Positions 9,020-51,663 of a DNA stretch of 64,000 bases are shown here, piece after piece. Source of the DNA: Candidatus Sumerlaeota bacterium. GTDB taxonomy: Bacteria; Sumerlaeota; Sumerlaeia; MWCT01; JAUWMI01. The translations under genes and the position numbers were made by a program. The DNA lies in the NCBI GenBank assembly GCA_030613245.1, contig JAUWMI010000011.1, positions 1-64,000 of the forward strand. The letters are read 5' to 3'. Under the pieces are notes generated by a model, which was given only the letters and a program-made list of their open reading frames with translations, did not search any database and was not told where the DNA came from. The first letter of the stretch is position 1. The number at the start of each line of letters is the position of its first letter.

Positions 9020-9377
9020 TGGCTGTCCCAGTTTTAAGGACAATGGTATAATTGTGGATGAAGAAGTTGGGCGCAAATATAGATTCCCTTTTCCAGATAA
9101 ACTATACGGAGATATTGGATGGTGGGCGAATCCTGGAGTTTTAATCTCCCCTTGCTACTTTCATCCTAAAGGTGACCCAGTGATAGCTATGCACGGTTAT
9201 GAGTCTTATCATCCTGCCAGTCAGGGATTTATTATAATGTTCGACAGTTCACAGGACTATCATAAATATATTCCACAGGCAAAATTAGTAGATGTATGTC
9301 CGACGATATGCGATCTTTGCCATGTGAGATACCCAGAACACAATGAAGGAAAGAGCCTTTTTTCGTATGAACAATGA
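9020..9377 (+). pseudogene. Alkaline-phosphatase-superfamily phosphodiesterase, fragment 2 (C-terminal part)
   Basis: From ~9020 a plus-strand frame reads GIIVDEEVGRKYRFPFPDKL, YGDIGWWANPGVLISPCYF, PVIAMHGYESYHPASQGFII and KLVDVCPTICDLCHVRYPEH, then ends at TGA 9375-9377. 'YGD...pG.lIsP.yF', 'HGY' (a metal-binding His) and 'DVCPTICDL' are the standard C-terminal elements of type I phosphodiesterases. It continues the domain broken at ~7415, leaving about 60 residues of the linker region unaccounted for. The ~30 codons before 9020 in this frame show no similarity and are not part of the gene. The gene is dead as a single enzyme. Confidence 0.6.
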
Positions 9378-9461
9378 ATTTATAACAGATAATTTGAGGG
9401 TTTTTCAGCTCTTAAGTTATACCTACCTAAAAGCAGAAATCAAAAACGAGACCAGCCAATT

Positions 9462-12897: not shown

Positions 12898-13280
12898 CTA
12901 TCAGTAGGGAGAATTTCGCAGTATCCTACGGAAGAGTTTGCCACCTGCGGAAATTAAGTAAAAATAATTACAGCTCACTGAGATCGTCTACCACGTTTCG
13001 ATGGGCAGGGAGAGACAGTTGGAGAAAACTCCGAAGAAACTCATAGCAGGTTTCAAATGGCGCAGTCATGTCTTGCAAAATATGGATCTCGGAAGCTGTC
13101 ACATCTCCACCCATGGGAATCTCTCTCTACTCCTGCGGCGCCATCGGTGAAAGCGTTATCTACTAAGACAACATGCCAATTTGAATAAGTTGTTTTTCTC
13201 TAAACTCTCAAGACATCCTGGGTTATTTTCTTTTCAGTTCCAGATTAACATGACTATATAAACCAGAGGTTTCTCCATAA
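12898..13280. other. Convergent intergenic region, no gene seen
   Basis: This 383-bp gap lies between the plus-strand GT2 and the minus-strand GT4 gene. Short frames exist (for example one reading KKLIAGFKWRSHVLQNMD at ~13.05 kb) but match no family I recognise. I find no convincing terminator hairpin with a T-run. It may hold decayed sequence like the rest of the locus. Confidence 0.4.
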
Positions 13281-14543: not shown

Positions 14544-14606
14544 GCGGCTTTCACCTCTTTATTTCTACCTGACCAAGCCACATATTTGCCCGAGCTTATC
14601 CTTTAT

Positions 14607-15734: not shown

Positions 15735-15916
15735 ATCCTCTGCTTTTCGCAGATCAATGTTCTTCCCTTATATATCACGCGCGCCCTGGAGAAAGACCTG
15801 CAGCAGGAAAATGCGCTCCATCCATAATTTAGACATTTGATTATAAGGTCTCAACACCCCTACGGGCGCACGCAGCGGGTCAAATTATATACGGAATTGC
15901 CCGATATCTCGACTCA

Positions 15917-17821
15917 CTAACAGTACTTCTCATACCACTTTTCGAACATAAACAGCGTCCACAGCTGTTTGCGATTGTCCTTGCGGCCAGCAAAGTGCTC
16001 ATCCATCAGACCACGGACGTATGCCGGTTGAAACAATCCCTGCTGCTTGAGCTTCGACTCCTGAAACAAGTCGAGCAACACAGGTTTCAAATCATGCTTA
16101 AACCACTCAGCAATAGGAACACCAAATCCCTTTTTCCTCCGATGGATAATATCACGGGGAAGCTTCGACTGCATCGCCCGTTTTAATATGTATTTCGTTG
16201 TAAACCCTCGGAGCTTCAGGTTGTGCGGAATAGTGTTAACAAATTCCACAACGTTCACATCGAGGAACGGCGCACGCACTTCGAGTGAATTAGCCATGCT
16301 GGTTCGATCAACTTTAACCAGAATGTCGTCCTGAAGATAGAGTTTGCAGTAAAGATAGATGATTCCATCGAGCTCATGCTGAATGGGAATCTGGCGCAGA
16401 TAGTTGTCAATAACACAAAACGGATTATGCGAATTAGTAGCCACGTATGCATCCGGGGTGAGAAGTGGACGCTGGCGGTCCGGCGGAAACGAACCAAGCC
16501 AGGCAAAATGGCGCTGCCCGTAATGATACTCCATTTCAGAGAGAAACTGTTTGACAACGAAGTCGAAACTAATGTTCCGGGACGATACCGGGAGCAGTCG
16601 TGCCACACTGCGCAGGGCCTTGATCACTGGCATCGGCAGCTTCTCCAGGTACTTTGCCGGATAATGGGCGAGAAAAGGATCGTAGCCTGCGAAGAGCTCA
16701 TCTCCCCCATCGCCACCCAGCGCAACAGTTACGTGTTTGCGCGTAAAGCGCGATAGGAGAAACGTGGGAATGACGGAAGGGTCGCCAAATGGTTCATCCA
16801 GGTTGTCACAGACCTCGGGCAGGATGTCGAGCAGCGTTTCCGGCTTCAGCACTTCTTCATAGTGGTCTGTTTGAAAGAGGTTAGCTATCCGCCGGGCATA
16901 TATAGATTCATCAAATGATTTCTCAGTAAAGCCAATTGAAAAGGTCTTAATGTCCTTTGACGGCATGAGTTCCGCCATCATAGCGACCACACAGCTGGAA
17001 TCAATACCGCCACTGAGAAAAACGCCGAGCGGCACGTCACTAATCAGGCGCAGTTGCACCGCCTCCTTGAATCGCCGAAGGAATTCTTCCGTGATCTCCT
17101 GGATGGGCCGCTGCACAGGTTTAAATTCTATGTCCCAGTACTGCCGAGGGATAATTTCTTGCCGGATCGCCCATGGCTGCTTCATATCAACGACAAAATA
17201 ATGGCCGGGTTCCAGCTTAAAAATCCCTTCGAAAATCGTTGCCGGGGCCGGAACGTATTCAAAAGCAAGATACTTGCTGAGACTCTCAAGCGATAGCGAT
17301 CTGCGAACTTCGGGATGCAGGATCAGGGCTTTGAGTTCAGACGCAAACACTATGTGCTTATTCATCACGGTATAATAGAGTGGCTTTTTGCCCATGCGGT
17401 CACGTGCGCAGAACAGCCGCTCCTGCTTCTTGTCCCAAATAGCAAACGCAAACATACCATTGAGCGACTTGAGGCAATCTACATCTTCCTCTTCGTACAG
17501 ATGAACGATTACTTCGGTATCCGAGTGAGTCTTGAAGACGTGGCGTCCGGTTTTCTCCAGGCGGGCTTTAATGTCGGGGAAATTGTAGATCTCGCCATTA
17601 AAGACGATGGCAATGCTGTCATCTTCGTTAAAGAGCGGCTGGTGTCCGCCGGCGAGATCAATAATGCTAAGGCGGCGCTGTCCGAGGGCCACATAACTAT
17701 CAAAAAAAACCCCCTGGTCATCAGGCCCGCGATGCCTGATTGCCAGGCACATTCGCTCGAGAACTTCGGGCGGCGGAATCCCTCCCCGATTAAGATGCAA
17801 ATATCCGCAAATGCCACACAT
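15917..17821 (-). CDS. asnB: Asparagine synthase (glutamine-hydrolysing)
   Basis: 634 residues from the ATG at 17819-17821. That start places Cys at position 2 (MCGICGYL), the nucleophile of the class II glutaminase domain after Met removal; longer open frame upstream would bury it. The glutaminase domain (about 1-210) shows RHRGPDDQG, RRLSIIDL and FNGEIYNF. The ATP-pyrophosphatase synthetase domain shows LGVFLSGGIDSSCVVAMM at about residue 267 and VALGGDGGDELFAGYDPF. It converts Asp to Asn, but AsnB homologues beside glycosyltransferases often amidate sugar carboxylates or other glycan-locus substrates. It precedes a downstream noncoding stretch and the GT4 genes on the same strand. Confidence 0.9.
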   Translation of the reverse strand: MCGICGYLHLNRGGIPPPEVLERMCLAIRHRGPDDQGVFFDSYVALGQRRLSIIDLAGGHQPLFNEDDSIAIVFNGEIYNFPDIKARLEKTGRHVFKTHSDTEVIVHLYEEEDVDCLKSLNGMFAFAIWDKKQERLFCARDRMGKKPLYYTVMNKHIVFASELKALILHPEVRRSLSLESLSKYLAFEYVPAPATIFEGIFKLEPGHYFVVDMKQPWAIRQEIIPRQYWDIEFKPVQRPIQEITEEFLRRFKEAVQLRLISDVPLGVFLSGGIDSSCVVAMMAELMPSKDIKTFSIGFTEKSFDESIYARRIANLFQTDHYEEVLKPETLLDILPEVCDNLDEPFGDPSVIPTFLLSRFTRKHVTVALGGDGGDELFAGYDPFLAHYPAKYLEKLPMPVIKALRSVARLLPVSSRNISFDFVVKQFLSEMEYHYGQRHFAWLGSFPPDRQRPLLTPDAYVATNSHNPFCVIDNYLRQIPIQHELDGIIYLYCKLYLQDDILVKVDRTSMANSLEVRAPFLDVNVVEFVNTIPHNLKLRGFTTKYILKRAMQSKLPRDIIHRRKKGFGVPIAEWFKHDLKPVLLDLFQESKLKQQGLFQPAYVRGLMDEHFAGRKDNRKQLWTLFMFEKWYEKYC

Positions 17822-36083: not shown

Positions 36084-37391
36084 CTACTCGGATAATTCAA
36101 TTGCCGCACCAAGCGACTTCAGATCCCGGAAAAAATTCGGGTATGATTTCGACACGTGCTGCGCGTTGGCGATGACAAGGCCTTTCCTGCACCGAAGGCC
36201 CACAATCGTAAGCAGCATCACTACCCTATGGTCGTTGTGGCTATCAACGGTCAGGCCTCCGTCGTAGCCAGCCGGATTCCCGTAGATAACCATCTCGTCC
36301 TGTTTCTCTTCAGCCCTTACGCCAATCCGGTTCAGCTCCGTGATTGGCACTGAGATGCGGTCACACTCCTTGAAGCGCAGGTTACCCACATTGTAGAATC
36401 GCGATTTGCCATGCGCGAAGCATGCAGCGCCGACCAGCGGCAAAACCGCATCAGTTGCAAGATCACCATTGAATTCCACTGCGCGAAGTGTCTGTGCCAT
36501 GGACTTAATCATGACGCTGTTTTTCTGATGCGATATCTCGGCGCCCATTGAACGCAGCACGTCCAGAGCAGCCCGCTCGCCCTGCTGGTCTTCGTACAGC
36601 CGCGTGATTGTAATGCGTGAGGGCATGATTGCCGCAGCAGCGAGAATGGCCGCTGCGCCGGGGTAATCACCGTGGACGTCGTAATGGTGGGGCTGATAAG
36701 CTTGCCCACCGTGAATAGAAAAGTACAACAGCTCATCGCTCGCATCAACCTTGATGCCTGCTTCGCGTATCACTTCAAGGGTGGTCTGGATCGCCGGCCT
36801 TGATTTCAACCCATTCACCACGCGAATAGAGATATCCTCGCCAATCAGCGGCGCGAGAAATAGCAGCGCGCTAACGTACTGCGAACTGACTGCGCCTGAT
36901 ACTGTGATCTCGCCACCCTTTAGCCCACTGCCATAAAGCGTAATCGGAAGATGACCCTGCTCCGACTCAGAGCGTACGCCGAGCTGAGCGAGTGCCTCGA
37001 GCAGATCTGCGTTTGGCCGCTTTCCCAGCGACTCAGGGAAATCGGTTTCAAAGGTCACCTCGGGCAATAACGCTCCTATCGGAAGCAGAAATCGGAGCAC
37101 GGCACCGGCGTTGTGAGGATTGAGCCGTCCAGGACTGCGCGGTCTTCTGCCAAAACCTGTAACATGAAGATCGCCGTTTCGTTTGCGAATGGTTGCGCCC
37201 AGAGCCTGGCAACACTGAATCATCGCCTCACCATCGTCGCTTTCCGCTGCATTGGAGACCAGACTTTCCCCTTCAGCAAGGCACGCGGCTAGAATATAGC
37301 GGGTAGTATAGTTTTTCGACGACGGTGGGGTAAGTGTTCCTTCCAGACGCTCAGTGTAGCGGACATGCGCAATCATTAAGTAGCCTTCCAT
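36084..37391 (-). CDS. aroA: 3-phosphoshikimate 1-carboxyvinyltransferase (EPSP synthase)
   Basis: A 435-residue two-domain enolpyruvyl transferase. The shikimate 3-phosphate site reads PSSKNYTTRYILAACLAEGES (Lys and Arg retained where others have GDKSISHR). NPHNAGAVLRFLLPIGAL stands for 'NAGTAMR', SLGKRPNADLLEAL for the R-P motif, then SSQYVSALLFLAPL, FKECDRISVPITEL and HNDHRVVM for the catalytic Asp/Glu-rich C-terminal loop. It is the sixth step of the shikimate pathway. The variant glycine loop resembles class II-type enzymes. The start could be ATG 37391 or ATG 37376. Other aro genes are not in the window. Confidence 0.9.
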   Translation of the reverse strand: MEGYLMIAHVRYTERLEGTLTPPSSKNYTTRYILAACLAEGESLVSNAAESDDGEAMIQCCQALGATIRKRNGDLHVTGFGRRPRSPGRLNPHNAGAVLRFLLPIGALLPEVTFETDFPESLGKRPNADLLEALAQLGVRSESEQGHLPITLYGSGLKGGEITVSGAVSSQYVSALLFLAPLIGEDISIRVVNGLKSRPAIQTTLEVIREAGIKVDASDELLYFSIHGGQAYQPHHYDVHGDYPGAAAILAAAAIMPSRITITRLYEDQQGERAALDVLRSMGAEISHQKNSVMIKSMAQTLRAVEFNGDLATDAVLPLVGAACFAHGKSRFYNVGNLRFKECDRISVPITELNRIGVRAEEKQDEMVIYGNPAGYDGGLTVDSHNDHRVVMLLTIVGLRCRKGLVIANAQHVSKSYPNFFRDLKSLGAAIELSE

Positions 37392-37468
37392 TCAAGCCAT
37401 ATAAGAATTGGACAATACCGCCTGAGGCGCACAATCCCGCCAAAGGCGGACAAGCAACTGATGTAGTC

Positions 37469-37506
37469 AAAAAAAGCGGGCAGGAGGAAGACTCGCTCCT
37501 ACCCAC
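37469..37506 (-). terminator. Rho-independent terminator downstream of rpmE
   Basis: Read on the minus strand: GTGGGTAGGAG, a 9-nt loop, CTCCTGCCCGC, then seven T. The 11-bp stem has two G-U wobble pairs. It lies 83 bp after the rpmE stop and before the aroA start, so it ends the rho/rpmE transcript. Confidence 0.78.
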
Positions 37507-37588
37507 TTTGAACTCGCTTTCCGGCAAGATTCCTGCGTATGCATCGCTCTTGCCATGCTGTTACCATTTCGTTCCTGTGAGCGCTACG

Positions 37589-37792
37589 CTATTTCTTCCC
37601 CCCGTATTTTTGAATATACTTCTCCACTCGCCCGGCACTGTCAACGAACTTCTGCTTGCCTGTAAAAAAAGGATGGCACGCTGAGCAAATCTCCAGCCGT
37701 TGCACCTTTTTTGTTGATCGGGTCTCGATCGCATTGCCACACGCACACGTAATGGTTGCTTCTTCATACTTAGGATGAATATCCTTTTTCAC
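37589..37792 (-). CDS. rpmE: Ribosomal protein bL31 (zinc-binding form)
   Basis: A 67-residue protein with the full bL31 pattern: [19 protein letters not shown], ...[29 protein letters not shown]. The four cysteines (CACG and CSAC, plus neighbours) make it the zinc-binding C+ form. The start codon is GTG at 37790-37792, supported by a strong GGAGGT eleven bases upstream. It is a peripheral protein of the large ribosomal subunit bridging to the small subunit. It follows rho on the same strand by 86 bp, a common bacterial order. Confidence 0.96.
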
Positions 37793-37878
37793 TCTACGTA
37801 TACCTCCGTAATTCAGAAAAATCTAAAAATTCACACCACCAGCCTGTTGCTCAATCCAACAAGAACTAGAATCATAGC

Positions 37879-39240
37879 CTATTGATTCATGGTGTCAAGA
37901 AAATCTTCATTGCTATCGGCTTTTTTCATACGTCCAATCAGGAATTCCATAGCCTCAACAATGTTCAGCTCGTTGAGGACTTTCCGCAGCAGCCACACGC
38001 GGCTCAATTCTTTCTCTGACAAGAGGAGTTCCTCCTTGCGCGTGCCAGACCGTGCAATGTCAATAGCCGGGAAGATGCGCCGATCTACGAGCTTTCGATC
38101 GAGGTTCACCTCCATATTGCCAGTACCTTTGAATTCCTCGAAGATCACGTCGTCCATGCGACTCCCGGTATCAATCAGTGCCGTTGCAATAATGGTAAGG
38201 CTGCCGCCCTCCTCGATGTTGCGTGCCGCGCCAAAGAAGCGCTTCGGCCGGTGAAGTGCATTCGAATCTAAGCCCCCCGAGAGTATCTTTCCGCTAGGGG
38301 GCGCGATGGTATTGTAGGCACGAGCCAGCCGCGTAATACTATCGAGCAAGATGACCACGTCTCTCTGATACTCAATAAGCCGTTTTGCCTTCTCAAGCAC
38401 CATCTCGGCCACCTGCACGTGGCGATCTGCAGGCTCGTCGAATGTCGAGGAGATGACCTCACCCTTCACCGAGCGCTCCATGTCAGTAACCTCCTCAGGA
38501 CGCTCGTCAATCAGAAGCACGATGAGATAAATCTCTGGATGATTAGTGGTAATCGCATTCGCAATATCCTGGAGGATCATGGTCTTGCCAGTGCGGGGCG
38601 GCGCCACGATCAGCCCCCGTTGTCCCTTACCAAGGGGTGTCATGAGATCCATGACGCGATTTGTCATTTTTGTTGGCGCAATTTCCAGATTGATGCGTTC
38701 CAGAGGGTAGAGGGGAGTCAAGTTGTCAAAGAGGATTTTCTCGCGGGCCAGCTCCGGGCTTTCGAAGTTGATCGCTTGGACCTTTAGCAGCGCAAAGTAG
38801 CGTTCGTTCTCCTTGGGTGGACGAATCTGACCCGAGACCGTGTCGCCCTTGCGCAAATTGAATCGGCGAATCTGCGACGGCGAGACGTAAATATCGTCCG
38901 GCCCTGGCAGATAATTGTAGTTTGGTGATCGCAGGAAGCCAAACCCATCGGGCAGAATCTCAAGCACCCCCTCGCCGAACATATGTCCTTCCTTCTCAGC
39001 GTTAGCCTGAAGGATTTTGAACATCAAGTCCTGTTTGCGAAGGTTTGAGTAGCCCTCAATCTTAAGCTGCTGAGCAAGCTTCATGAGCTTGGAGATAGTA
39101 TAGGTCTTCAGTACCCCAATATCAATGACCTGCGTCTCGTCCGGCTTGTCAGCAGTCTTGCTTGACACCTGCGATGGTGCAATCGCGTTCTCCGCAGGAT
39201 TCTGTTCATTGTTTTCTTCTACTTTTTTCTTCCCTCTCAT
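37879..39240 (-). CDS. rho: Transcription termination factor Rho
   Basis: About 453 residues from the ATG at 39238-39240, which has AAGGA upstream; the frame is open to 39318. A charged ~55-residue N-terminal extension precedes the Rho N-domain ([20 protein letters not shown]), the RNA-binding cold-shock fold ([21 protein letters not shown]) and the RecA-type ATPase with Walker [11 protein letters not shown], Walker [17 protein letters not shown] and the R-loop region. It is the hexameric helicase that terminates untranslated transcripts. Order rho-rpmE is conserved in many bacteria. Confidence 0.96.
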
Positions 39241-39327
39241 TGGTCTATCCTTCTTCCCTTCTTCATTTAGAATCTCACCCTGATTTGATGTGGAAACCAC
39301 CCTATATATAAAAATCACAGTATGAAG

Positions 39328-39930
39328 TCAGCGTATTTCTCCAAGAAACATTGCGGCCAGTTGCTTGACCTGAGCTTGCGCCTCTTCCAGACTGCCGCTA
39401 TTATCAATAACAAAATTGGCTCGTTTTCGTTTTTCTTCCTGTGGCATTTGTGCCTGCAGGCGGCGCTGAATCTCATCTGACGTCAGCCCCTCCTGCTGCT
39501 CTGTAAGACGTCGCATCCTCTCTGCCTCATTTACAACTACCACGACGACTTTGTCCACCAGATGCTCCATATTATTTTCAAACAATAAGGGGACGCTTAA
39601 AACTACAAGCGGATGATCCTTGTAGTGAGACAGGAGTTCCAGTTCACGCTTTCTTACGCGCGGGTGAACAATTCTGTTGAGAACTTCGCGTTTGGAGGCA
39701 TCCTGAAATACCATTGCAGCCAGCCTTTTGCGATCCAATGCACCCTGTTCATCACCCAGAACCTCGCGTCCAAATGCCTGTACGATCTCTTGAAATGCAG
39801 GTGTACCTGGTTTCACCACCTCCTTGGCAATTTCATCCGCATCAATAATGACGGCCCCCAGCGCGGCGAACATTCTAGCCACAACCGACTTTCCGCTGCC
39901 GAACGACCCTGTCAGACCGACAACCGTCAT
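39328..39930 (-). CDS. coaE: Dephospho-CoA kinase
   Basis: 200 residues from the ATG at 39928-39930, giving the standard start MTVVGLTGSFGSGKS with a Walker A P-loop. Then AALGAVIIDADEIAKEVVKP, LDRKRLAAMVFQD, NRIVHPRVRKREL, VLSVPLLFENNME and VVVVVNEAERMRRL. It phosphorylates the 3'-hydroxyl of dephospho-CoA, the last step of CoA synthesis. The frame is open a further 38 codons upstream into the polA 3' end, but that part has no similarity. It follows polA by ~100 bp and precedes rho by ~90 bp, so polA-coaE-rho-rpmE may form one transcript. Confidence 0.95.
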   Translation of the reverse strand: MTVVGLTGSFGSGKSVVARMFAALGAVIIDADEIAKEVVKPGTPAFQEIVQAFGREVLGDEQGALDRKRLAAMVFQDASKREVLNRIVHPRVRKRELELLSHYKDHPLVVLSVPLLFENNMEHLVDKVVVVVVNEAERMRRLTEQQEGLTSDEIQRRLQAQMPQEEKRKRANFVIDNSGSLEEAQAQVKQLAAMFLGEIR

Positions 39931-40028
39931 GCTATATCGCCACGCCCTGTTTCCACAAATCTCGCCGATCCATTCCAGAACCCTAACGGAATCGGCAGGG
40001 CCATTCAGAGGGCCCATGCCCTGAGCCG

Positions 40029-42713
40029 TTAGTGGCTCACGCACTCAGCCCAGTTCTTTCCGGTAGAAATGGTAACTATCACGGGAACGCGCAGCTCGAG
40101 CGCACCGGTCATTTCACGCTCGACAATCCCAGAGACCAGAGGGACTTCATCTTCCGGCACATCAAAGATCAGCTCATCATGAACTTGCATAATCATCCTG
40201 GCTTTCAAGGCATGATTGCAGAGTGCGTGATCAATGGCAATCATGGCCTTCTTGATCATATCTGCCGAGGTTCCTTGGACTGGCATGTTGATCGCCATGC
40301 GCTCGGCATTACTGCGCAACGTCCCATTGGAGGAGGTAATGTTGGACAAATATCGCCGCCGATTCAAGAGGGTCGTTACATAGCCATTATCGCGTGCATA
40401 TTGAAGAATTGAATCAATCCAGCCTTTCACCCCCTGGTAGGCAGTAAAATACTCTTTGATAAAGGTCTCTGCAAGGGCACGAGGAATTTTCAGCTGCTGG
40501 CTTACGCCATAGGCTGACATGCCGTAAATTATGCCGAAGTTGATAATTTTGGCCTGGTTCCGCATCTCCGGTGTAACTTCATCCAGTGAGCAGCCAAAGA
40601 TTTTCACAGCAGTAGCCCGATGTATGTCTTCATTACGCTGGAATGCCTCGATCAGACCTTTGTCCTCAGTCAGGTGAGCCAGAATGCGCAGCTCAATCTG
40701 TGAATAGTCCGCTGAGAGTAGTACTCGCGACGGCTCAGACGCGATGAATCCCCTCCGAATCTCACGCCCCTGCAGGGTCCGCACCGGAATGTTCTGCAGG
40801 TTTGGCTCACTACTGGTTAGACGCCCTGTGGCTGCCACAAACTGGTTATACGAGGTATGAATCCGCCCGGTGTGCGGATTCACCATCTCCGGCAGGCTAT
40901 CAATATACGTATTTTTGAGCTTTTCATAAGTTCGATACTCCAATAACAGCTTCGGCAAAGGATGGGATAAACTTAATTCATCCAGCACACGAACGTCTGT
41001 GGAATATCCGCTCTTTATTTTTTTCAGTGGCGGCAATTTCAGCTCCTCAAAGAGGACCTTTGCCACTTGCTTGGGCGAATTGATATTAAACGCATGTCCA
41101 GATAGCTGGTAAATCTTCTGTGCAAGCTCATTAAGCCTGTGTTGCGTTTCTCGCGATAACCCCCTGAAATACGGAACATCAATGCACACACCTTCCATTT
41201 CCATTGCATTAAGCACTTCAAGCAGGGGCATCTCAATCTCCCGGAACAACGGCAACAGCTTAGCCTCCTTGAGCCGATCGCAAAGTATGTGGCTAAGCTG
41301 AAGTGTAACGTCCGCATCTTCACATGCATACTGCGAAGCAGGCTCGATCTCTACTTCTGCCATGGTAATCGCTGATTTGCCCTTGCCAATAAGATCAGAT
41401 ATTGGCCTCATAACAATGTTCAAATAGTTAAGCCCAAGGTCTTTGAGGTTATGAGATTTCCTGTCGGGATTCAGGAGGTACGACGCCAACAGGGTATCAA
41501 AAACGATTCCGTCAAGCGAGAATGCGTGCCGACGCAGGACCTTGAGATCGTATTTGATGTTCTGGCCGCATTTCGTAATTGTAGCATCGGCCAGCAACGG
41601 GCCAAGAATCTCGCGCACCTCGGCTAGCGATATCTGCTGTGCCGAGGCAGAGTCACCCGTATGTCCACACGGGACATAGCTGGCTGAGTTCGGCTCAGTG
41701 CTCATTGAGATGCCAACCAGTGCTGCACGCATGGGCTTTTCAGATGTGGTCTCTGTATCAATGGCCACGTAGCCTGCGCACCGCGCTGCTGCTACTTCTG
41801 CTTTCAAGCTCTCAATGGATGTAATGGTCCGATAGTTGACGTCGCGCTTTGGCCCAGAAACGCACAGTCTCTCGAGCAGCGAGTGAAACTCCATCTCCCG
41901 ATAGAGACGCACCAGCTCGTCATTCGGGCGAAATTCCCAGGCGAAAGCCTCAAGGCTCACCGGCAGCTCCACGTCTATCTTAATAGCAGCAAGGCGTTTG
42001 GACAGCAATGCCTGTTCTGCATTCTCTTGAACGACCCGCCGCCGTTTCTCATTCGCGATGCGTTGACTATTGGCCAACAGGTTTTCGACCGTGCCAAATT
42101 CTGTCAGCAGCGCCGCTGCAGTCTTAGGCCCCACAGATGGAACACCTGGAATGTTATCCGACGTATCGCCCACCAGACCAAGGAAATCCACGATTTGCTC
42201 GGGGAAGACCCCCATCTTCTCTTTCACCTTCTGCCGGTCGTAAAGATCAAAACTTTCCGACTGTGCGCGCAGAATGCGCACTGAGTCGCTCACCAGCTGA
42301 AATAAATCCTTATCGGCAGTGAGGATGACAACCTCGAAGCCCGTTTGTGAAGCCGACGAAGCCAAAGTGCCTATAATATCGTCAGCCTCTACCCCTTCAT
42401 GTTCGATCTGCGTAATTCCCATAGCCGAAAGGATGCGCTTCACCCAAGGAATCTGTATCTGTAAATCATTAGGCATTGGGGGCCGGTGGGCCTTGTAGTC
42501 TGCAAAGAGGTCGTTGCGAAAAGTAGGCCCGGGATGATCGAAAGTAACTGCAAGATATTTTGGCTGACACTCACGTACCAGCTTATTCAGCATTTGCACA
42601 AAGCCGTAAATCGCATTCGTCGGCATTCCTTTTGAATTGCTCAGGTTACGAATTGCATAGTAGGCTTTGTACAAATACGAATGCCCATCAATGATGTACA
42701 ATATCTGAGCCAT
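40029..42713 (-). CDS. polA: DNA polymerase I
   Basis: An 894-residue, full-length enzyme. The 5'-3' exonuclease/flap domain (about 1-290) starts YIIDGHSYLYKAYYAI and has VEADDIIGTLA and GVPSVGPKTAAALL. The 3'-5' exonuclease domain (about 310-490) keeps catalytic Asp/Glu in YVAIDTETTSEKP and YACEDADVTLQLS, so proofreading is probably active. The polymerase domain (about 510-894) has motif A DYSQIELRILAHL, motif B KIINFGIIYGMSAYG and motif C MQVHDELIFDVPE. It works in Okazaki-fragment maturation and repair. CGGAG precedes the start. Confidence 0.97.
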   Translation of the reverse strand: MAQILYIIDGHSYLYKAYYAIRNLSNSKGMPTNAIYGFVQMLNKLVRECQPKYLAVTFDHPGPTFRNDLFADYKAHRPPMPNDLQIQIPWVKRILSAMGITQIEHEGVEADDIIGTLASSASQTGFEVVILTADKDLFQLVSDSVRILRAQSESFDLYDRQKVKEKMGVFPEQIVDFLGLVGDTSDNIPGVPSVGPKTAAALLTEFGTVENLLANSQRIANEKRRRVVQENAEQALLSKRLAAIKIDVELPVSLEAFAWEFRPNDELVRLYREMEFHSLLERLCVSGPKRDVNYRTITSIESLKAEVAAARCAGYVAIDTETTSEKPMRAALVGISMSTEPNSASYVPCGHTGDSASAQQISLAEVREILGPLLADATITKCGQNIKYDLKVLRRHAFSLDGIVFDTLLASYLLNPDRKSHNLKDLGLNYLNIVMRPISDLIGKGKSAITMAEVEIEPASQYACEDADVTLQLSHILCDRLKEAKLLPLFREIEMPLLEVLNAMEMEGVCIDVPYFRGLSRETQHRLNELAQKIYQLSGHAFNINSPKQVAKVLFEELKLPPLKKIKSGYSTDVRVLDELSLSHPLPKLLLEYRTYEKLKNTYIDSLPEMVNPHTGRIHTSYNQFVAATGRLTSSEPNLQNIPVRTLQGREIRRGFIASEPSRVLLSADYSQIELRILAHLTEDKGLIEAFQRNEDIHRATAVKIFGCSLDEVTPEMRNQAKIINFGIIYGMSAYGVSQQLKIPRALAETFIKEYFTAYQGVKGWIDSILQYARDNGYVTTLLNRRRYLSNITSSNGTLRSNAERMAINMPVQGTSADMIKKAMIAIDHALCNHALKARMIMQVHDELIFDVPEDEVPLVSGIVEREMTGALELRVPVIVTISTGKNWAECVSH

Positions 42714-43228: not shown

Positions 43229-46200
43229 TCAATCTACAATACGGCCAGTTAAGAAAATCAGAAGCGTGGTCTTCTCAATTTTACTAAGATTACGCCCAAA
43301 GAACAATTTCCCTAAAAAGGGAAGATTACGAAGTATTGGAACACCGGAGGTGTATTCTCCTGAGCGCTCGCCTGCCCAGCCTCCCAGGACGATGGTCTGG
43401 CCATCACGGAGTCGCGCCGTGGTACTTATATCCTTGCGAATCAGCCCCAAGTCATACGTTCCCTGGTAAACGGCGAGTGGCCCGACCCCTGGATCTAATC
43501 CAGGGCGCTGTATAGACGTCAGTGCACCCAAGTTATGATCAAAATCATAGATCTCCGCATCAATGTCTAACATAATAGAGCCCAATTGCGTGATCGTTGG
43601 ACTTACGCTTAAATCCACCTGATCAATCCGTGCGATGCCAGCACCGGCAATAAAGTTCCCCTGCGCATCTACCAAAGGAAGACCCAACTGCCGGTCTATC
43701 TCAAAATCCGCTGTCTCGCCATTGAGCACGAGAATATTGGGGCTACTTACTATGTTGATGATCCCTTCTGCCTCAAGCAGCCGCAACTGATAGTTAACCG
43801 GGGATTCCCCACCTCCAATAATCCAGTTGAAGATCGTTGTTCCTTTTAGTAGGTTCGCCTCCCGAGTACTCTCAACACCCGGCTCAAACTCCGAGCGAAA
43901 CTCGTCCATATCCTGGGCAAATCGCATATTGAACAAACTGGAATCTAGATCAACCCCTTTCCCCAGATTCAATATGGTAAATTCCGAACTGTACTCCTTG
44001 GCGCGGCTCTCGATGACCTCGACAAAACGGACTTCAATAGAGACCTGAAGCACAGGTATATCCAGCCTCTCGATCCACTCAGCCACCTCAGCAAATTGCG
44101 CAGGATCTTCGTAGCGAATGAGCAGCGCATTCAAGGTCTCTATTTCATCAACGCTCAATGCTTCTGCTGCCGCTTCCTCCTCCGGCGTCGGTGTGGGGGT
44201 TGCTTCAGGGGCCTGAACCTGCCCAGGAGGTGGCAGGTAACGAATTTCAAGCTTAGCCCGCCCTTCACCCGGTGTGCCGGAGGGCCTGATATCCGGCGCG
44301 CTGATCTCATAATCATCAATGAACTCTGAGCGGAACTCTTCAATGGTCATGTCCTGGCTGGTTGTTGGGGTATTGACCACAAGCTCCACGCTGTCGTCCA
44401 GATCATCGTTGATGTTATTCTCATTGACCCGCACTACTCGCAAACGCAGATCGCGAAATTCCAGCACATCTTCCACGCGCACTGATTTCGTTATACTGAT
44501 CCCCCGCTCTGCTACTGTATCAGCCGCCTCAAGCCCGAGCACCTGGCGCAACTGATCTGCCAGGTCCGTAGCCTTCACATGCTTGAGAAAAATAATCTCC
44601 GACTTTCTGCGCTTTTCAATCATGGGCAAGCTGGCCAGAAACTTACTCACAGCTTTCAGATTGTCGGGATAATCTGTAACGGTCAACTGCATGGTAGAGC
44701 GATCGTACCAGAGCCGGCGACCCTCCTGTCGTGCAGCGCTACGCCCGGTCTTGGCATACAGCATTGTCTCAATCACTTCAACAACATAGTCACCAAACTG
44801 CTGTACCTGCTCAGGATTCTTCTCTATCCACGCAGGAGCAACATTATACGTTTCCACGCGAATCTTGTCCTCGCGCAACTTCGCGATGAATGTCTTCTCT
44901 TCCAACAATTCCTCGATTTTCTTAATATTTTCCGGCGTGTCTTTTACGATGAGCTCGCCCTCGCTGATGAGCAACTTGCGTTCCTTGCTGTATGGTGCAC
45001 GGCTCTCTGCCTGTAACATACCCTCAATCAGGGCCTTGATCTTCGGCCCGAGCTCCGGACGGATAGTGTAGCTCCGGTAGATCAGCGATGGAGGCATCTC
45101 GTATTTGAGATCCTTTAGCAAGGCGTCCAGCCGCTCAATGTTGGACTTCGAATCCGTGCTGATCAAAAGCGCTTCGCGCTCATCCAGCCTCAATTCAACT
45201 CCCTTTACTTTTGGTGTCGCATCTGGAGGCCACAAAATCCTCTGGAGAAACTTCGTCTCCATCATTGCCCTGACTTTGGTAATCTCTTCGGGCGTTAATG
45301 AAAACACCTTCATCTGTAAATGCATCGTGACGGTGATGATGTCCGTTCCAGGCTTACGAGACCATTTTAGCCCAATTTCAAGCAAAATCGTGTCGAGGAT
45401 TTCTCGCAACTGAATATCGTCGAATTTGGCGAAGACACTTGCCTCTACACCCTCTGCCACGTAAAAGTTAATCCCGGTTGCTAGCGAAAGTGTTCGCAGG
45501 AACTCCTTCAAATCGGTGGTTTCGGTAGTGGAGATCGTTACCGGCATGTCGAGTTTTTTCTGCGCGGCTTTTTCTTTGGCCTGAAAGTCCTCCGCCTCTT
45601 TACTACGCGCCAGGAAGCGCTCGTATTCATCCCGGGTTTGCTCAAGATAAGTTTGTGCCCCGAGGTGATCAGGATTGGCTGCTAGTGCCTCCCGCCACTT
45701 CGCAACAGCAGTCTCAATGTCCGTACCCTCATAGGCAGCCAGGCCTTCTTTAAAAAGCTCTTCAGCCCGTTCGCCCCGATGCTTCATCTCTTCCTTATCT
45801 GCAACCATCCTTTGCTCTTCGATTCTTGTGTTGCAAAGCCGAATATGGCGGGCGGCTTTGGCATTTTTCGGATCGTATTGTAAGACCTCTTGAAATTTCT
45901 CGAGTGCCAGATTATATGCCCCTTCCTTATATAACCGTTCCCCATCCGCCAGCTTGTTGCGGATCAGCAGGAGATGCCGCTCCGCTTTCGTCGCTGCTAC
46001 CTGAGCCAGCAGATCCTTTGCCGTCTTGTTCTCCGGATAAACCCCCACCGCTTGCTCCAGCTTGGCCTGTGCCTCATCGTATTTCCCTGCGTCCAGCAGC
46101 TCCTTGGCCTCTTCGGTCAGATGCTGCGACGTTAACATAGCCTCTTCCTTGCGGCGTTGCTCTGCGCGCTTTCTCTCCTCTTCTTCGCGAATCTGCGCCA

Positions 46201-49036
46201 GTGCCACTTCTGTACGCCCCTTGTAAACAACAGCCTCCGAGTAGAGTGGCTCAAGAGCCAGAGCATTATCGAAACGCTCAAGCGCCTCCTCGTATTTCTT
46301 CTTATCAAATAGGGCTATTCCCTGGGCCGTGAGTTGTTTTGCTTGTTCCAGGCTTGCTTTTTCTAGTTCCTCAATTTCTTTCTGCTTGGCCTCTTCTTCC
46401 GCTTTAGCCTTCTCAAGTGACGCTTTCTCAACTTCTGCCTTTTTCCTTTCCTCTTTAGCCTTTGCCTCCTCAGCCTTCGCTAAACTCTTACGGGCATTCT
46501 GAACACCGGTCAGGGCTTTGGCGTTTGCCGCATCCAGTTTCAAAACCGCTTCGAATTCTGCAATAGCATCTGCATAGCTCTTTTCGCCAAGGAGTGCCTC
46601 AGCCTTATTGATATGGACAGCGATTTCTTTCTGCTTGGCCTCTTCTTCCGCCTTAGCCTTCTCAAGTGCCGCTTTCTCAGCTTCTGTCTTTTCCCTTTTC
46701 TCTTCCTCTTTAGCCTTTGCTTCTTCAGCCTTCGCCAAACTCTCGCTGGCGTCCTGAATACCAGCCAGAGCATCGGCAAGGGCTTTATTTTTCGGGTCCA
46801 GTTTCAAAATCGCTTCGAATTCTGCAATAGCCTCCTCATAGCTCTTTTGCCCAAGCAGGTCTTCAGCCTTTCTGAGATGGGCAGCGATCTTTTCTTTCTT
46901 TTCCTTCTGTTCGCGCTCCTGCAACAGCCGTTCCTGCTCTCGTGCCTCCGCCTGCTCGGCCTTGGCAAGAAATGCATTGGCGTCTACATTAGCCGGGGCA
47001 AGCTTTAACGCCTCTTTGGCTTCGGCAATCGCCTCCCGGAACTTATTCCGAGCAAGCAGATTCTCGGCTGCCTTAAGCTGAGAAGCAATGGCTGCCTCAT
47101 GTTCTCTCTTCTTACGCGCTTCAGCTTCGGCGCGACGTTTTTCTTCTTCTGGCAACCTGACTGCGGCCTGCTGGGCTGCTAATGCCTCCTGGGCAATTGC
47201 CAACTGCGCTGTTGCCCTTGTGTTTTCGGCACCCAGCTCTAATGCTTCCTTATACTTCTTTATCGCCCGTTCAAACTTGTCCTCCTGGAAGAGCCCATCG
47301 CCTTCCGCTATCAGTGCTCCCGCACGCTCGCGCTGCTTGGCCTCCTGTTCGGCACGTTTCTGCTCGTCTTTGGTAGCCCGCGCCTCAGCTTTCGCCAAAC
47401 TCTTATGGGCATTCTGAACACCAGCAAGCGCCTTTGCATTTGCTGCATCCAGTTTCAAAACCGCTTCGAATTCTGCAATAGCATCTGCATAGCCATTTTG
47501 CTTAAGGAGCTCTTTGGCCTTTCTGAGATGTGCGGCGATCTTTTCCTGCTTCTCTTCCTGTTCGCGCTCCTGCAACAGCAGCTCCTGCTCTCGTGCCTCT
47601 GCTTGTTCTGCTCTGGTAAGAAATGTATTGACATCTACATTAGCCGGGTCGAGGTTCAACGCCTCTTTGGCTTCGGCAATGGCTTCCCGGAACTTATTCC
47701 GAGCAAGCAGCTTCTCGGCTGCCTTAAGCTGAGAAGCAACGGCTGCGTTACGTTCTCTCTTCTTACGCGCTTCAGCTTCGGCGCGACGTTTTTCTTCTTC
47801 TGGCAACCTGACTGCGGCCTGCTGGGTTGCTAATGCCTCCTGGGCAATTGCCAACTGCGCTGTTGCCCTTGTATTTTCGGCATCAAGCTCTAATGCTTCC
47901 TTATACTTCTTTATCGCCTTTTCAAACTTGTCTGCCTGGAAAAGCCTATCGCCTTCCGCTATCAGTGCTGCCGCACGCTCGCGCTGCTTGGCCTCCTGTT
48001 CGGCACGTTCCTTGTCTTTCTTGGCAGCTTTTGCCGCAGTCTTTGCCGCAGTTTTTGCCTGGGCAATAGCCTGTTTGGCTTCCTGATTATTCTTGTCGAT
48101 GGAGAGAATCCTCTCGTACTCCGCAATGGCGCTCTTGAACTCTTGATTTGCCTGGAGCGCATTACCCCGCGCCAGCAAATTCGCAATTAACGCCTGCTGC
48201 GCTTCTTGCTGCTCACGCTTGCGTTCAGCTTCCAGACGCTCCGTTTCGGCAACTCGTGCTGCTTCCAGTTCCGCATTTATCTTCTTCTCCAGCGCGCGCG
48301 CCTGCCTGTTCCTGGGCTCTAGCTCAAACACCTGTCGCACCTCAGCCTTCGCCATAGCAAGCTGTGATTGCTTCAAATACGCCTCGGCTTTGTCTAAGTG
48401 GGAGGCAATTGCCTTGCGCTCTTCCTCTGCTGCCTTTTCTTTTGCCTCCTTAAGCACTAGGGACGGAGATGGAGTGACAGCAACAGGTGTCTCGCTTGTG
48501 GCAAGACGGTCTTTGATTCGCTTCAAGTATTTCTTTGCAGCGCGATAATCACCTGTAATAATCCAGATTTGTTCAAATACGTTCTTAGCTTCCTCATAGG
48601 CTTTGTCGCGATACAATTGTTGGGCTTCTTTGTACTTCTCCTTGACGTATTCGTCGCGCTCGGCTCCAAGAGGAATCTCCGCCAACAATGCCTTCTGTTG
48701 TGCCTGGCGCAACTTACACTCCTCGATTAACTGCTGAATCTTCACATTAGGCTTGTCCAAACGGAGGGCGCGTTCGTAGTTGATCAACGCGAATGTAAAT
48801 TCGGCATTGTCATAATACTCTTTCGCCTTCTTCAAATACTCAGCCACCTCCGCGGCTTTGCGCTGTTCAATCAACGTATCGAACGATTCATCCACCTGGG
48901 CAATCTGCTTAAGCTCCGGAGAAGAAGCAGGATCGTTCGTTGGGCTATCATCAGCAGCAATCAGCAGAGAAATGCCAAAAAAGACAATAGAAATTAGTAC
49001 CAGAACCTGTTTTTTCCCTGGCGTGCAACGCTTCAT
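43229..49036 (-). CDS. Giant TPR-secretin (PilQ/GspD-like outer-membrane channel)
   Basis: ~1,935 residues from the ATG at 49036 (an in-frame TTG at 49045 is better spaced from AAAGGAGT). Signal peptide VLVLISIVFFGISLLIAA. Residues ~40-1160 are TPR units separated by charged KAEEE-type coiled coil, e.g. SYADAIAEFEAVLKLDAANA. Residues ~1164-1650 hold STN/N0- and N1-like domains (TTDLKEFLRTLSLATGINFY) and a Pro/Glu linker. Residues ~1660-1935 are the secretin core: VSIEVRFVEVIESRAKEYS, SSPNILVLNGETADF, GVPILRNLPFLGKLFFGRN. Typical PilQ/GspD has 600-750 residues, so this is nearly three times longer. It probably forms the outer-membrane pore of the pilus/secretion system encoded with PilMN. Confidence 0.92.
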   Translation of the reverse strand: MKRCTPGKKQVLVLISIVFFGISLLIAADDSPTNDPASSPELKQIAQVDESFDTLIEQRKAAEVAEYLKKAKEYYDNAEFTFALINYERALRLDKPNVKIQQLIEECKLRQAQQKALLAEIPLGAERDEYVKEKYKEAQQLYRDKAYEEAKNVFEQIWIITGDYRAAKKYLKRIKDRLATSETPVAVTPSPSLVLKEAKEKAAEEERKAIASHLDKAEAYLKQSQLAMAKAEVRQVFELEPRNRQARALEKKINAELEAARVAETERLEAERKREQQEAQQALIANLLARGNALQANQEFKSAIAEYERILSIDKNNQEAKQAIAQAKTAAKTAAKAAKKDKERAEQEAKQRERAAALIAEGDRLFQADKFEKAIKKYKEALELDAENTRATAQLAIAQEALATQQAAVRLPEEEKRRAEAEARKKRERNAAVASQLKAAEKLLARNKFREAIAEAKEALNLDPANVDVNTFLTRAEQAEAREQELLLQEREQEEKQEKIAAHLRKAKELLKQNGYADAIAEFEAVLKLDAANAKALAGVQNAHKSLAKAEARATKDEQKRAEQEAKQRERAGALIAEGDGLFQEDKFERAIKKYKEALELGAENTRATAQLAIAQEALAAQQAAVRLPEEEKRRAEAEARKKREHEAAIASQLKAAENLLARNKFREAIAEAKEALKLAPANVDANAFLAKAEQAEAREQERLLQEREQKEKKEKIAAHLRKAEDLLGQKSYEEAIAEFEAILKLDPKNKALADALAGIQDASESLAKAEEAKAKEEEKREKTEAEKAALEKAKAEEEAKQKEIAVHINKAEALLGEKSYADAIAEFEAVLKLDAANAKALTGVQNARKSLAKAEEAKAKEERKKAEVEKASLEKAKAEEEAKQKEIEELEKASLEQAKQLTAQGIALFDKKKYEEALERFDNALALEPLYSEAVVYKGRTEVALAQIREEEERKRAEQRRKEEAMLTSQHLTEEAKELLDAGKYDEAQAKLEQAVGVYPENKTAKDLLAQVAATKAERHLLLIRNKLADGERLYKEGAYNLALEKFQEVLQYDPKNAKAARHIRLCNTRIEEQRMVADKEEMKHRGERAEELFKEGLAAYEGTDIETAVAKWREALAANPDHLGAQTYLEQTRDEYERFLARSKEAEDFQAKEKAAQKKLDMPVTISTTETTDLKEFLRTLSLATGINFYVAEGVEASVFAKFDDIQLREILDTILLEIGLKWSRKPGTDIITVTMHLQMKVFSLTPEEITKVRAMMETKFLQRILWPPDATPKVKGVELRLDEREALLISTDSKSNIERLDALLKDLKYEMPPSLIYRSYTIRPELGPKIKALIEGMLQAESRAPYSKERKLLISEGELIVKDTPENIKKIEELLEEKTFIAKLREDKIRVETYNVAPAWIEKNPEQVQQFGDYVVEVIETMLYAKTGRSAARQEGRRLWYDRSTMQLTVTDYPDNLKAVSKFLASLPMIEKRRKSEIIFLKHVKATDLADQLRQVLGLEAADTVAERGISITKSVRVEDVLEFRDLRLRVVRVNENNINDDLDDSVELVVNTPTTSQDMTIEEFRSEFIDDYEISAPDIRPSGTPGEGRAKLEIRYLPPPGQVQAPEATPTPTPEEEAAAEALSVDEIETLNALLIRYEDPAQFAEVAEWIERLDIPVLQVSIEVRFVEVIESRAKEYSSEFTILNLGKGVDLDSSLFNMRFAQDMDEFRSEFEPGVESTREANLLKGTTIFNWIIGGGESPVNYQLRLLEAEGIINIVSSPNILVLNGETADFEIDRQLGLPLVDAQGNFIAGAGIARIDQVDLSVSPTITQLGSIMLDIDAEIYDFDHNLGALTSIQRPGLDPGVGPLAVYQGTYDLGLIRKDISTTARLRDGQTIVLGGWAGERSGEYTSGVPILRNLPFLGKLFFGRNLSKIEKTTLLIFLTGRIVD
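46706..48007 (-). repeat. Tandem 651-bp duplication within the secretin gene
   Basis: Two consecutive units of about 651 bp (217 codons), roughly 47357-48007 and 46706-47356, are nearly identical at DNA level over most of their length. Both encode RAEQEAKQRERA, LIAEGD, KYKEALEL, LPEEEKRRAEAEARKKRE and NKFREAIAEAKEAL in the same order. The downstream part (45.9-46.7 kb) contains shorter imperfect copies of the same TPR and coiled-coil modules. Confidence 0.8.
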
Positions 49037-49223
49037 GATCACCAACTTTCGCACTCCTTTTAGCCACGGATGAGGTACATCATAAAAACGCATGCGATAC
49101 TAACAGTGTGCAGACCCATGTCAAGCAAAATAAAGCCTAAAACCTGTTTGCGATGATGGGAAACTTGCCTATTTTCAGCCGCCTCCAGCCATCAAACTGA
49201 GCCGGAAACTTCCCGGCACTCGC

Positions 49224-49709
49224 TTAGGATGAAGGAGGTGACGAGGTACTCAATTGCTCATCAATTTTCTTTAATAAATCTTGCGAATTGATATGCGCAG
49301 GCCAAACTGTTAAGATATCTTTGAGGATTCCACGGGCTTCCTCATATTTGGCGTCATTGTATAGTTGCTGTGCCTGGGTAAACTTCTGATTCATCTCTTT
49401 AAGAATAATCTCGTGATCCCGCACCGTTTTATAATCGAACACATTGAACCTGCCCAGTGAAATGAAAGCTTCGTCCTTCTCCAGATCCGAGTGTTCATTA
49501 AATAGTTGGATAACTTTCTCATACTCGTTGTTTGGCAGGTATTCCTCCAAGGGTTCTTTCTTAGGACTCGGTGGCGGCTCTATGGTTACCGATTGCTCAT
49601 GCATGTAGGCATAGATAATCCCAACGAGAAACAGGAGGAAAACAATGACAATCACCTTATCTAGCTGGCCTCGCAGCTTGTTCTGAACCGCGAGAAACTG
49701 TCCATTCAT
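49224..49709 (-). CDS. Single-TM periplasmic TPR-like protein in the PilMN-secretin operon
   Basis: A 161-residue protein. A short cytoplasmic N-terminus is followed by one membrane helix (VIVIVFLLFLVGIIYAYM, residues ~20-38), a Pro-rich linker (PPPSPKKEP) and a periplasmic domain with two TPR-like helix pairs (NEYEKVIQLFNEHSDLEKD; QQLYNDAKYEEARGILKDIL). It lies between the PilM-PilN fusion and the secretin, where PilO/PilP normally are, and could bridge the inner-membrane platform to the secretin. It shows no sequence similarity to PilO or PilP that I can see, so that role is inferred from position and topology. Confidence 0.6.
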   Translation of the reverse strand: MNGQFLAVQNKLRGQLDKVIVIVFLLFLVGIIYAYMHEQSVTIEPPPSPKKEPLEEYLPNNEYEKVIQLFNEHSDLEKDEAFISLGRFNVFDYKTVRDHEIILKEMNQKFTQAQQLYNDAKYEEARGILKDILTVWPAHINSQDLLKKIDEQLSTSSPPSS

Positions 49710-49770
49710 CCCTGTGTTCCCTTCGACTTCTGAACGGCCCCTGGGCTTCGCGAACGACCGTCACAGCATC

Positions 49771-51663
49771 CTATCGTTCAACTTCAATTGGCACGGGTGT
49801 CGCTACAACAGGGCGACGCCGCGATACGGCAGCTGCCTCCTCTGGCGGCCTGACCCGCGAAACCTTATCGGAAAAATCCATCCTGATTTCAAATTGATTA
49901 ACGTTCTTTTTATAGCGCTCGTCGTAAACTTTCATAATGTGGAAAAGCTCGGGGCGCGAATCAAAGTTCACGAGCACATTCTGAAGGTTCTTTGTAAAAT
50001 CCGACGCCGACCGCTCATCTTCCGTTTTTCCAAGTATCCTCACATTTCCGTTGGCATCCATGATGATAAGATCAATCAGCACATCAGCAGGCTTCTGCTT
50101 CTGCATGGTCGCTAGAAATTCCAGCCAATAGTCACGATCAGCCAGCGAGTCCCCTAAATTTACAAACCTTTCTTTAAGCGTTTCGCGTTCCTTTCTTATA
50201 TCGTCAGTCTTCGTAGTTCCTAAGCCTTCCTTCCTGATAATTTCCCTAACTATGGTCTCCAGACGCTGGTACATTTCAATATAGCGATCACCAACCTGTG
50301 TGCTGACCCCAATCGTGACCAAGAGAAGCACCACGATCGCTGCAACCAGCACATTCTTCTTCTTAAATTCTCGCAGGGTCTTAAGATCAACAGGCAGAAA
50401 ATCAATACTGACATTCGCCAGGCCCAATCCCTGAAGACCCAGTCCAATCGCAATTAGAAACGGCGTCAATTTCTTTCCATCTTGCCCCATCACTGCGATT
50501 GAAGGATTCTTGGTCTGCTCGACAACTTCAACCGGCAAGCCTAGTTTCTCCTCGATGTAACTGTCAAGATTGGACAGCTGTGCTTGCCCTCCGCTCAGGT
50601 AAATCGCATCAATTGCCATGCCCTCAGGCTGAGAAATATAAAAATCTAACGACCGTCGTAACTCTGCAATCAAACGGTCAACGATAAACATCGTGGCTTC
50701 TGTGGCTTCCTGATTCACAGGCTCATGCTCCGTCCCTTCTTCTGCTTCCAGGGTACGCAGCATGACGTCCTGCTTCTTTACCCGCTCGGCCTCTTCAAAG
50801 CTCTCAATCCCAGACTTGTCCTGGATACACTTGGTGATTTCGTTCCCAGCCACTGGCACACTTCGAGTGAACCCAAGCGTAGGAGTCTTGCCTAACCGCG
50901 CAATGGAGAGATCCAGCATGCTCGCCCCGATATTGACGTATGCCTTAACCTCTTCGTAGGCAGATACGTCTTCCACAGGCTTTTCTTCTACTTCTTCTTT
51001 CTCCTCCTCGGGTTTTTCCTGCGGCCTTGGCTTTCTTTTCAAAAAGGGGAGCGAGAAACCACGCAGTAACTTCCCCACCTTGTCAACCTTCCCTTTTCCA
51101 GTAGTCTCAGCACCCCCTGAGACCTTATCGAACAAAGGGCCTTCATCAAATATATAGTAATTATACAGAGCAAGCGAGCTCACGCCAATACTGAGCGGCT
51201 TTAGCCCCGTTCTCCTAACCACCTCCATATAACTGTTTATGTGGTCTCGCTTGACCGCCACCATGAGGACAACGACTTCGTCCTCTTCGGCCTCGGAAAA
51301 AACTTGGTATTCCATGACAGTCTTATCAAGCGGAAAGGGAATCTGCTGGCGTGCTTCATAGGTAATTATGCGGGCCAATCGCTCGTCAGTAGTCTTGGGC
51401 AGCTTAACTCGACGCACAAATACCGACTGGCCGGGAATGCAGAACACCGCTTCTTTCGTTGTAATGCGGTTTGTTCTGAGAAGATCTCGGAGGACGCTTA
51501 GGGCTTTCTCGTTCCGCTCGCTTTCTGACACACGATGGGGAAGATTTAGCTCGGCACTTGCAAGATTCGTGATCTTGAGCTGGCCCTTCTCGTAAACAAG
51601 CTCTGCAACTTTAATCGTATTACAGCCGAGATCAACCCCTAGACATTTTCGTCTAGCCTGCAT
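49771..51663 (-). CDS. PilM-PilN fusion protein
   Basis: A 630-residue protein. Residues ~1-425 are PilM (actin-like ATPase): KCLGVDLGCNTIKVAELVY, VFCIPGQSVFVRRVKLP, EARQQIPFPLDKTVMEYQVF and IYLSGGQAQLSNLDSYIEEK. A highly charged insertion (~205-245, EKPEEEKEEVEEKPVED) interrupts it. Residues ~437-456 are a single membrane helix, and ~457-600 read like the PilN periplasmic coiled coil plus ferredoxin-like domain (PADVLIDLIIMDANGNVRIL). In most type IV pilus operons PilM binds the cytoplasmic tail of PilN as a separate subunit; here they are one chain. GGAGG ribosome binding site upstream. First gene of a three-gene operon. Confidence 0.88.
   Translation of the reverse strand: MQARRKCLGVDLGCNTIKVAELVYEKGQLKITNLASAELNLPHRVSESERNEKALSVLRDLLRTNRITTKEAVFCIPGQSVFVRRVKLPKTTDERLARIITYEARQQIPFPLDKTVMEYQVFSEAEEDEVVVLMVAVKRDHINSYMEVVRRTGLKPLSIGVSSLALYNYYIFDEGPLFDKVSGGAETTGKGKVDKVGKLLRGFSLPFLKRKPRPQEKPEEEKEEVEEKPVEDVSAYEEVKAYVNIGASMLDLSIARLGKTPTLGFTRSVPVAGNEITKCIQDKSGIESFEEAERVKKQDVMLRTLEAEEGTEHEPVNQEATEATMFIVDRLIAELRRSLDFYISQPEGMAIDAIYLSGGQAQLSNLDSYIEEKLGLPVEVVEQTKNPSIAVMGQDGKKLTPFLIAIGLGLQGLGLANVSIDFLPVDLKTLREFKKKNVLVAAIVVLLLVTIGVSTQVGDRYIEMYQRLETIVREIIRKEGLGTTKTDDIRKERETLKERFVNLGDSLADRDYWLEFLATMQKQKPADVLIDLIIMDANGNVRILGKTEDERSASDFTKNLQNVLVNFDSRPELFHIMKVYDERYKKNVNQFEIRMDFSDKVSRVRPPEEAAAVSRRRPVVATPVPIEVER

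Follow-up and report, generated by a model that had tools for sequence, protein, structure and literature searches.

The window analysed here, a stretch of 64,000 nucleotides from contig JAUWMI010000011.1 of the Candidatus Sumerlaeota assembly GCA_030613245.1, carries an operon of three minus-strand genes. These probably encode the alignment complex and the secretin of a second type IV pilus (T4P) of the genome, of the Akkermansia/Planctomycetes-Verrucomicrobia-Chlamydiae kind (Amuc_1098-1101-like) with fewer parts. This assessment covers the explanation as a whole, i.e., the identity of the complex, its reduction, a periplasmic bridge made by an arm of the secretin, and a partner engine encoded on another contig. 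The homologies of the proteins, their gene order, their conservation throughout the class Sumerlaeia, and the loss of PilO and of the HR domain follow directly from the comparisons below. In T4P and in type II secretion systems (T2SS), the periplasm is normally spanned by an inner ring of PilN, PilO and PilP and by the contact between PilP and the N0 domain of PilQ. The phylum Sumerlaeota had no pure culture as of PMC8092238, and twitching genes of T4P were reported in all the Sumerlaeota metagenome-assembled genomes of that study.

The three proteins of the operon

The first gene (49771-51663, minus strand) encodes a PilM-PilN fusion of 630 residues. It comprises a cytoplasmic PilM/FtsA-like ATPase fold (~1-412), one transmembrane (TM) segment (~437-457) and a periplasmic ferredoxin-like PilN domain (~515-596). 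The protein matches PilM_2 of Pfam (8e-36) and the PilM structures 3jc8 and 5eou of PDB, and it belongs to the PilM family by TIGR01175 (166.6 bits, for a cut-off of 133 bits). The Pfam PilN model (PF05137) matches residues 516-595 at 1.7e-3, under its cut-off. We compared the part behind the TM segment with the canonical PilN family of the class using profile-profile alignments (hhalign), which gave probabilities of 95.5-96.7%, against 1-8% for a PilO control. This confirms the predicted PilN domain. The fusion remains outside the Amuc_1101 family (NF045709; 207 bits, for a curated cut-off of 650 bits), a threshold that none of 386 genomes reaches, the best score being 618.

The last gene (43229-49093, minus strand) is an open reading frame (ORF) of 1954 residues. 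The start is likely to be an in-frame ATG at residue 20 (49036), which is followed by a signal-peptide-like stretch and results in a product of 1,935 residues. The protein has many tetratricopeptide repeats (TPRs) over about 1,100 residues, followed by Secretin_N (2.5e-11, 44 bits) and Secretin (2.2e-27, 96 bits), both above cut-off, which makes it a member of the secretin family. TPR families, composition and AlphaFold2 (AF2) delimit an arm of TPRs and charged helices at residues ~57-1160 (45614-48925); an AF2 single-sequence model of residues 300-860 is almost entirely helical (pLDDT 71, pTM 0.28). The core (residues ~1160-1954; 43229-45613) consists of an N0-like domain, further N domains (Secretin_N at 1499-1683) and the pore (1773-1954), and matches the PilQ structure 6w6m of PDB (7.6e-16). 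STN/N0 was found at the equivalent place in the orthologues of genomes G167, G304 and G319. The core (~795 residues) is 35-55% identical within the class. Among the arms read, lengths run from about 385 to 1160 residues, and that of the window is the longest. Of the secretin models, GspD scores best (131 bits, under its cut-off); the Amuc_1098 family (NF042912) gives 89.7 bits, under its cut-off of 750 bits, and does not include the protein. The DNA of the arm also contains recent internal duplications (46374-47747), with 300 nt at 87% identity and a spacing of 651 nt, and further copies at 71-88%.

The middle gene (49224-49709, minus strand) encodes a small single-TM protein of 161 residues, at the position of PilP/Amuc_1099. 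It has a short cytoplasmic N-terminus, a TM segment (~17-36), a Pro-rich linker, an N-x-F motif (~88-91, 'RFNVFDYK') and one TPR hairpin (~103-153). No Pfam family scores over its cut-off, and there is a weak TPR-like signal. An [N/D]-x-F motif lies near residue 90-110 in every member of Sumerlaeia read, in agreement with the R-N/D-x-F of the proteins encoded third in longer operons of other phyla (see below), and N-x-F is also present in G167 and G304. The half with the anchor, the linker and the motif, taken without the TPR, matches the proteins at the PilP/Amuc_1099 position of other phyla at 96.4% (E 1e-9); other single-TM proteins of these systems, used as controls, score 5-8%. This overturns the view of an earlier note on the window, in which the protein had no resemblance to PilO or PilP, and it rules out a linker unrelated to PilP. 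The AF2 single-sequence model of the protein is all-helical, with low confidence (pLDDT 48).

PilP normally binds the N0 domain of PilQ by its C-terminal domain, and the HR domain of PilP and GspC is the part that binds the N0 of secretins (PMC3441751). The small protein has the anchor, the linker and the [R/N]-x-F type motif of these families and lacks their C-terminal beta HR domain: there is no match to PilP or T2SSC, and only the TPR hairpin and a low-complexity tail follow the motif. Judging from its sequence, it is the protein of the PilP/Amuc_1099 position, in which a TPR hairpin stands where the HR domain would be. The hairpin matches the TPR of the PilP-position protein of a canonical pilus operon on another contig of the genome (C76; see below) at 93%. 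Generic TPRs of the secretin arm reach 89%, and we do not claim a specific homology between the two hairpins. The anchor half does not match the C76 protein.

The earlier note had described most of this organisation: three minus-strand genes starting with a PilM-PilN fusion, a secretin of ~1,935 residues with a front of ~1,160 residues of TPR and coiled coil, the inner complex and secretin of a T4P-type machine, and the absence of PilO and of PilB/PilT. All three ORFs are present, and these descriptions hold with the Pfam domains, the start at residue 20, the alignments to PilN and the searches reported below.

Conservation in Sumerlaeia and origin of the operon

PilM-PilN fusions like that of the window (best E under 1e-49) were found in 36 of the 38 other genomes searched in the class; the two genomes with no match are G015, with a completeness of 82%, and G035, with 75%. 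The small gene lies directly behind the fusion in all 20 neighbourhoods fetched, with a gap of -56 to +100 nt that leaves no room for PilO, and no PilO/Amuc_1100-like gene is present in the operon at any of the 20. The TPR-secretin comes next in each of the 15 neighbourhoods with enough contig. Conservation across the whole class excludes a chance arrangement, and the three-gene neighbourhood in related genomes is the one that the earlier note had named as support for a distinct system. The secretin is followed by polA in 9 of 14 class neighbourhoods, in many cases accompanied by coaE and rho.

A longer parent operon occurs in other phyla, among them in a genome of the Akkermansia type (G309), in the order PilMN-PilO/Amuc_1100-PilP/Amuc_1099-TPR-PilQ, with one or more secretins. 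The gene after PilMN matches Pfam PilO in G270, G056 and G255, and Amuc_1100 in G309 and G266. The third gene matches Amuc_1099 in G309 and G266, and Pfam PilP, below threshold, in G270. The G309 operon matches the Amuc models in order, with 618 bits for 1101 and 716 bits for 1098, and with 1100 and 1099 (over cut-off) between them; TPRs occupy about 108-233 of its secretin; N-terminal TPRs, three of them, have likewise been published for Amuc_1098 (PMC4960237). The operon is followed by polA and/or coaE-rho in G126, G266 and G255, and preceded by PilB-PilT-PilB-PilC in G126, G244 and G103. The three-gene form is present in G167, and both G167 and G304 have polA-coaE-rho as the next genes. These two genomes and G319 group with the class in the PilMN tree (support 94/98). 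The small protein of G304 stops right after RNLF and that of G167 resembles the class form, so that both look like intermediate stages. The three genes of the window descend from this conserved T4P cluster beside polA-coaE-rho.

Within the window, polA (40029-42713), coaE (39328-40044) and rho (37879-39318) lie downstream of the operon on the minus strand, as conserved context and not as parts of the machine. In several phyla, pilus secretin genes have polA-coaE-rho (36084-42713 in the window) immediately behind them. Some pilus operons of other phyla are organised differently. Loci L126 (G244, 4554-8481) and L133 (G103, 12764-16487) have distinct genes for the TPR-bearing protein and the secretin pore, and each of the two loci contains two short secretins. 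Locus L141 (G056, 2521-14399) is a giant operon with a PilM-PilN of 861 residues, PilO, a PilP-like protein, a protein of 1009 residues and a secretin of 1614 residues.

The candidate engine and other systems of the genome

The window has no ATPase of the PilB/PilT type, and all the T2SSE matches of the genome (G000, in which the operon lies on contig C4 and to which all C-numbers refer) fall on other contigs. The earlier note had suggested that the machine is completed elsewhere, and contig C70 offers a candidate: LarC-x-PilB1-PilT-PilB2-PilC, followed by nine pilin-like genes. The extension ATPase, the platform protein and the pilins are thus present in the order seen upstream of the parent operon in other genomes, and this order suggests a possible partnership. 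The counterparts of PilB1, PilT and PilB2 in the engines of G126, G244, G167, G304, G255 and G266 each find their best match in the respective gene of C70, and LarC is also upstream of the engine in G126. The PilC tree has a canonical clade (100/100) that includes the PilCs linked to canonical pilM in G126, G244 and G255 and the PilC on C25 of the window's genome. It also has a polA-linked clade (99/97) and a clade of Sumerlaeota, G167, G304 and G319 that includes C70 (100/99). The latter three genomes carry the same type of PilMN as the window. The polA-linked and C70-type clades have the same gene order and replace each other among the genomes sampled. The simplest reading would be that C25 drives the complex on C76 and C70 drives the one on C4. 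Synteny and phylogeny support, if they do not prove, C70 as the probable partner of the window's operon.

The complex on C76 is a separate canonical pilM-N-O-P-Q set. A scan of the genome's contigs with the PilM-PilN fusion brought up a single locus, which looked unrelated. The earlier note had named two findings that would speak against a distinct system, canonical genes elsewhere in the genome and an unrelated context for the three genes: the first was found, on C76; the second was not, given the descent from a T4P cluster beside polA-coaE-rho. The PilP-position protein of the canonical operon (L057, 4496-5239, and orthologues in the class) combines a TPR hairpin with a C-terminal domain that weakly resembles T2SSB. 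Two complete T2SS-type operons, each with its own GspE-F-L-M-C-D, are present on C86. The 4.3-Mb genome has ten secretin domains (on C86, C76, C84, C94, C4, C82 and C22), among them two adjacent short ORFs on C84 (L058, 8420-10416) and two adjacent secretins of ~535 residues on C22 (L063, 8064-11358). It also has nine PilT-size ATPases (357-388 residues) on nine contigs (C41, C87, C65, C16, C93, C55, C70, C26 and C31), an unusual number for the retraction type, besides nine of the PilB/GspE type.

Proposed mechanism and competing explanations

In the machine that we propose, the PilM-PilN fusion would recruit the cytoplasmic motor and anchor the inner ring. PilO being absent, the PilP-position protein would contribute its anchor, linker and N-x-F motif, with one TPR hairpin instead of the lost beta HR domain. 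The arm is N-terminal to N0 and would therefore point towards the inner membrane, where it may contact the TPR of the small protein and/or the PilN domain, coupling the pore to the motor. C70 would supply the motor and the fibre, with PilB1-PilT-PilB2-PilC and its nine pilin-like genes. We infer that the arm makes the bridge in place of the lost PilO and HR parts and that the product would be a retractile T4P. More tentatively, this may be a class-wide T4P machine that works without PilO and without the HR-N0 contact between PilP and secretin, the membranes being joined through contacts of the TPRs of a pared-down PilP-position protein with those of the secretin arm, which can be extended and duplicates internally.

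Several points weigh against this explanation. The 3-fold variation of arm length within the class is odd for a strut of fixed length, and the single-sequence AF2 models of the small protein and the arm are weak. In Sumerlaeia the C70 and C4 genes are not linked, and the engine of C70 might also serve the canonical complex of C76. The PilC tree does not establish the C70-type and polA-linked PilCs as sisters (48/41), and joining the C70 type to the canonical one could not be rejected (p 0.475). The operon is therefore paired with the engine by gene order, by one-to-one matches and by exclusion.

The same T4P complex might use its arm differently, as a built-in pilotin or as a module for assembly at the outer membrane or peptidoglycan, like PilF, TadD or BamD, with the bridge made by N0 and a borrowed PilP such as the TPR-PilP of C76. 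PilF and TadD, both TPR lipoproteins, serve as pilotins of secretins (PMC10499894), the three TPRs of the Akkermansia PilQ were likened to pilotins by its authors (PMC4960237), and the wide variation in arm length fits such a role. The C76 protein has its TPR hairpin, and its G007 orthologue the weak T2SSB-like domain. However, arms of 385-1160 residues far exceed the five TPRs of TadD, and TadD attaches to its secretin at the C-terminal tip (PMC10499894), whereas the arm of the window precedes N0. Furthermore, loss of the HR domain from the small protein coincides with the absence of PilO and with a long arm. We regard this alternative as unlikely.

A distinct T2SS-like secretion or DNA-uptake system, instead of a pilus, is very improbable. 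GspD is the best secretin model, and GspL is also laid out as a PilM-PilN fusion, but relatives of the operon match the Amuc_1098-1101 models and synteny links it to an engine that includes genes for PilT and pilins. The two separate T2SS operons on C86 led us to reject a T2SS assignment. Finally, the missing PilO and HR domain and the canonical complex elsewhere could suggest a decaying remnant of an alignment complex, which is hardly credible for three intact ORFs that are conserved class-wide and in two further lineages, with a secretin core 35-55% identical over ~795 residues.

Relation to known systems

The reduced T4P complex most resembles the Amuc_1098-Amuc_1102 cluster of A. muciniphila, which includes the PilM-like Amuc_1101, Amuc_1100, Amuc_1099, and Amuc_1098, a PilQ with three TPRs. 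Both have a PilM-PilN fusion, TPRs N-terminal to the secretin, and the gene order from PilM(-N) to the secretin. Of the Amuc_1098-1101 arrangement, the window has the first and last parts, with an arm of up to 1160 residues against about 200; the PilO-like Amuc_1100 is absent and the Amuc_1099 position is cut to a TM segment, N-x-F and a TPR. The canonical PilMNOPQ of type IVa pili shares the PilM, PilN and secretin domains and a membrane protein at the PilP position, but in the window PilM and PilN form one protein, PilO and the HR domain are lacking, and the secretin bears a TPR arm. The T2SS resembles it in the fusion of GspL, in the TM-linker-HR layout of GspC and in GspD, the best-scoring model of the core, whereas the window's operon has no GspM, no HR domain and no pseudopilin operon around it. 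Secretin-based pilus machines also have TPR proteins attached to them, namely MshN of the MSHA pilus, TadD of Tad, and PilF; these are separate proteins, whereas the TPRs of the window are built into the secretin and the PilP-position protein.

The earlier note had presented the fusion, the arm and the linker together as noncanonical. PilM-PilN fusions and TPR-bearing secretins were already known from Amuc_1101, GspL and Amuc_1098. We found no published description of a variant without PilO and HR in the literature searched, whose coverage mostly left out subscription journals. A whole class keeps a pilus cluster without PilO and the HR domain, with a secretin lengthened by TPRs. Together with G167 and G304, the class offers a natural experiment for telling essential parts of the bridge from dispensable ones. 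The finding also helps to place the poorly understood Amuc_1099, Amuc_1100 and Amuc_1098, of which Amuc_1100 is a studied immunomodulator of Akkermansia.

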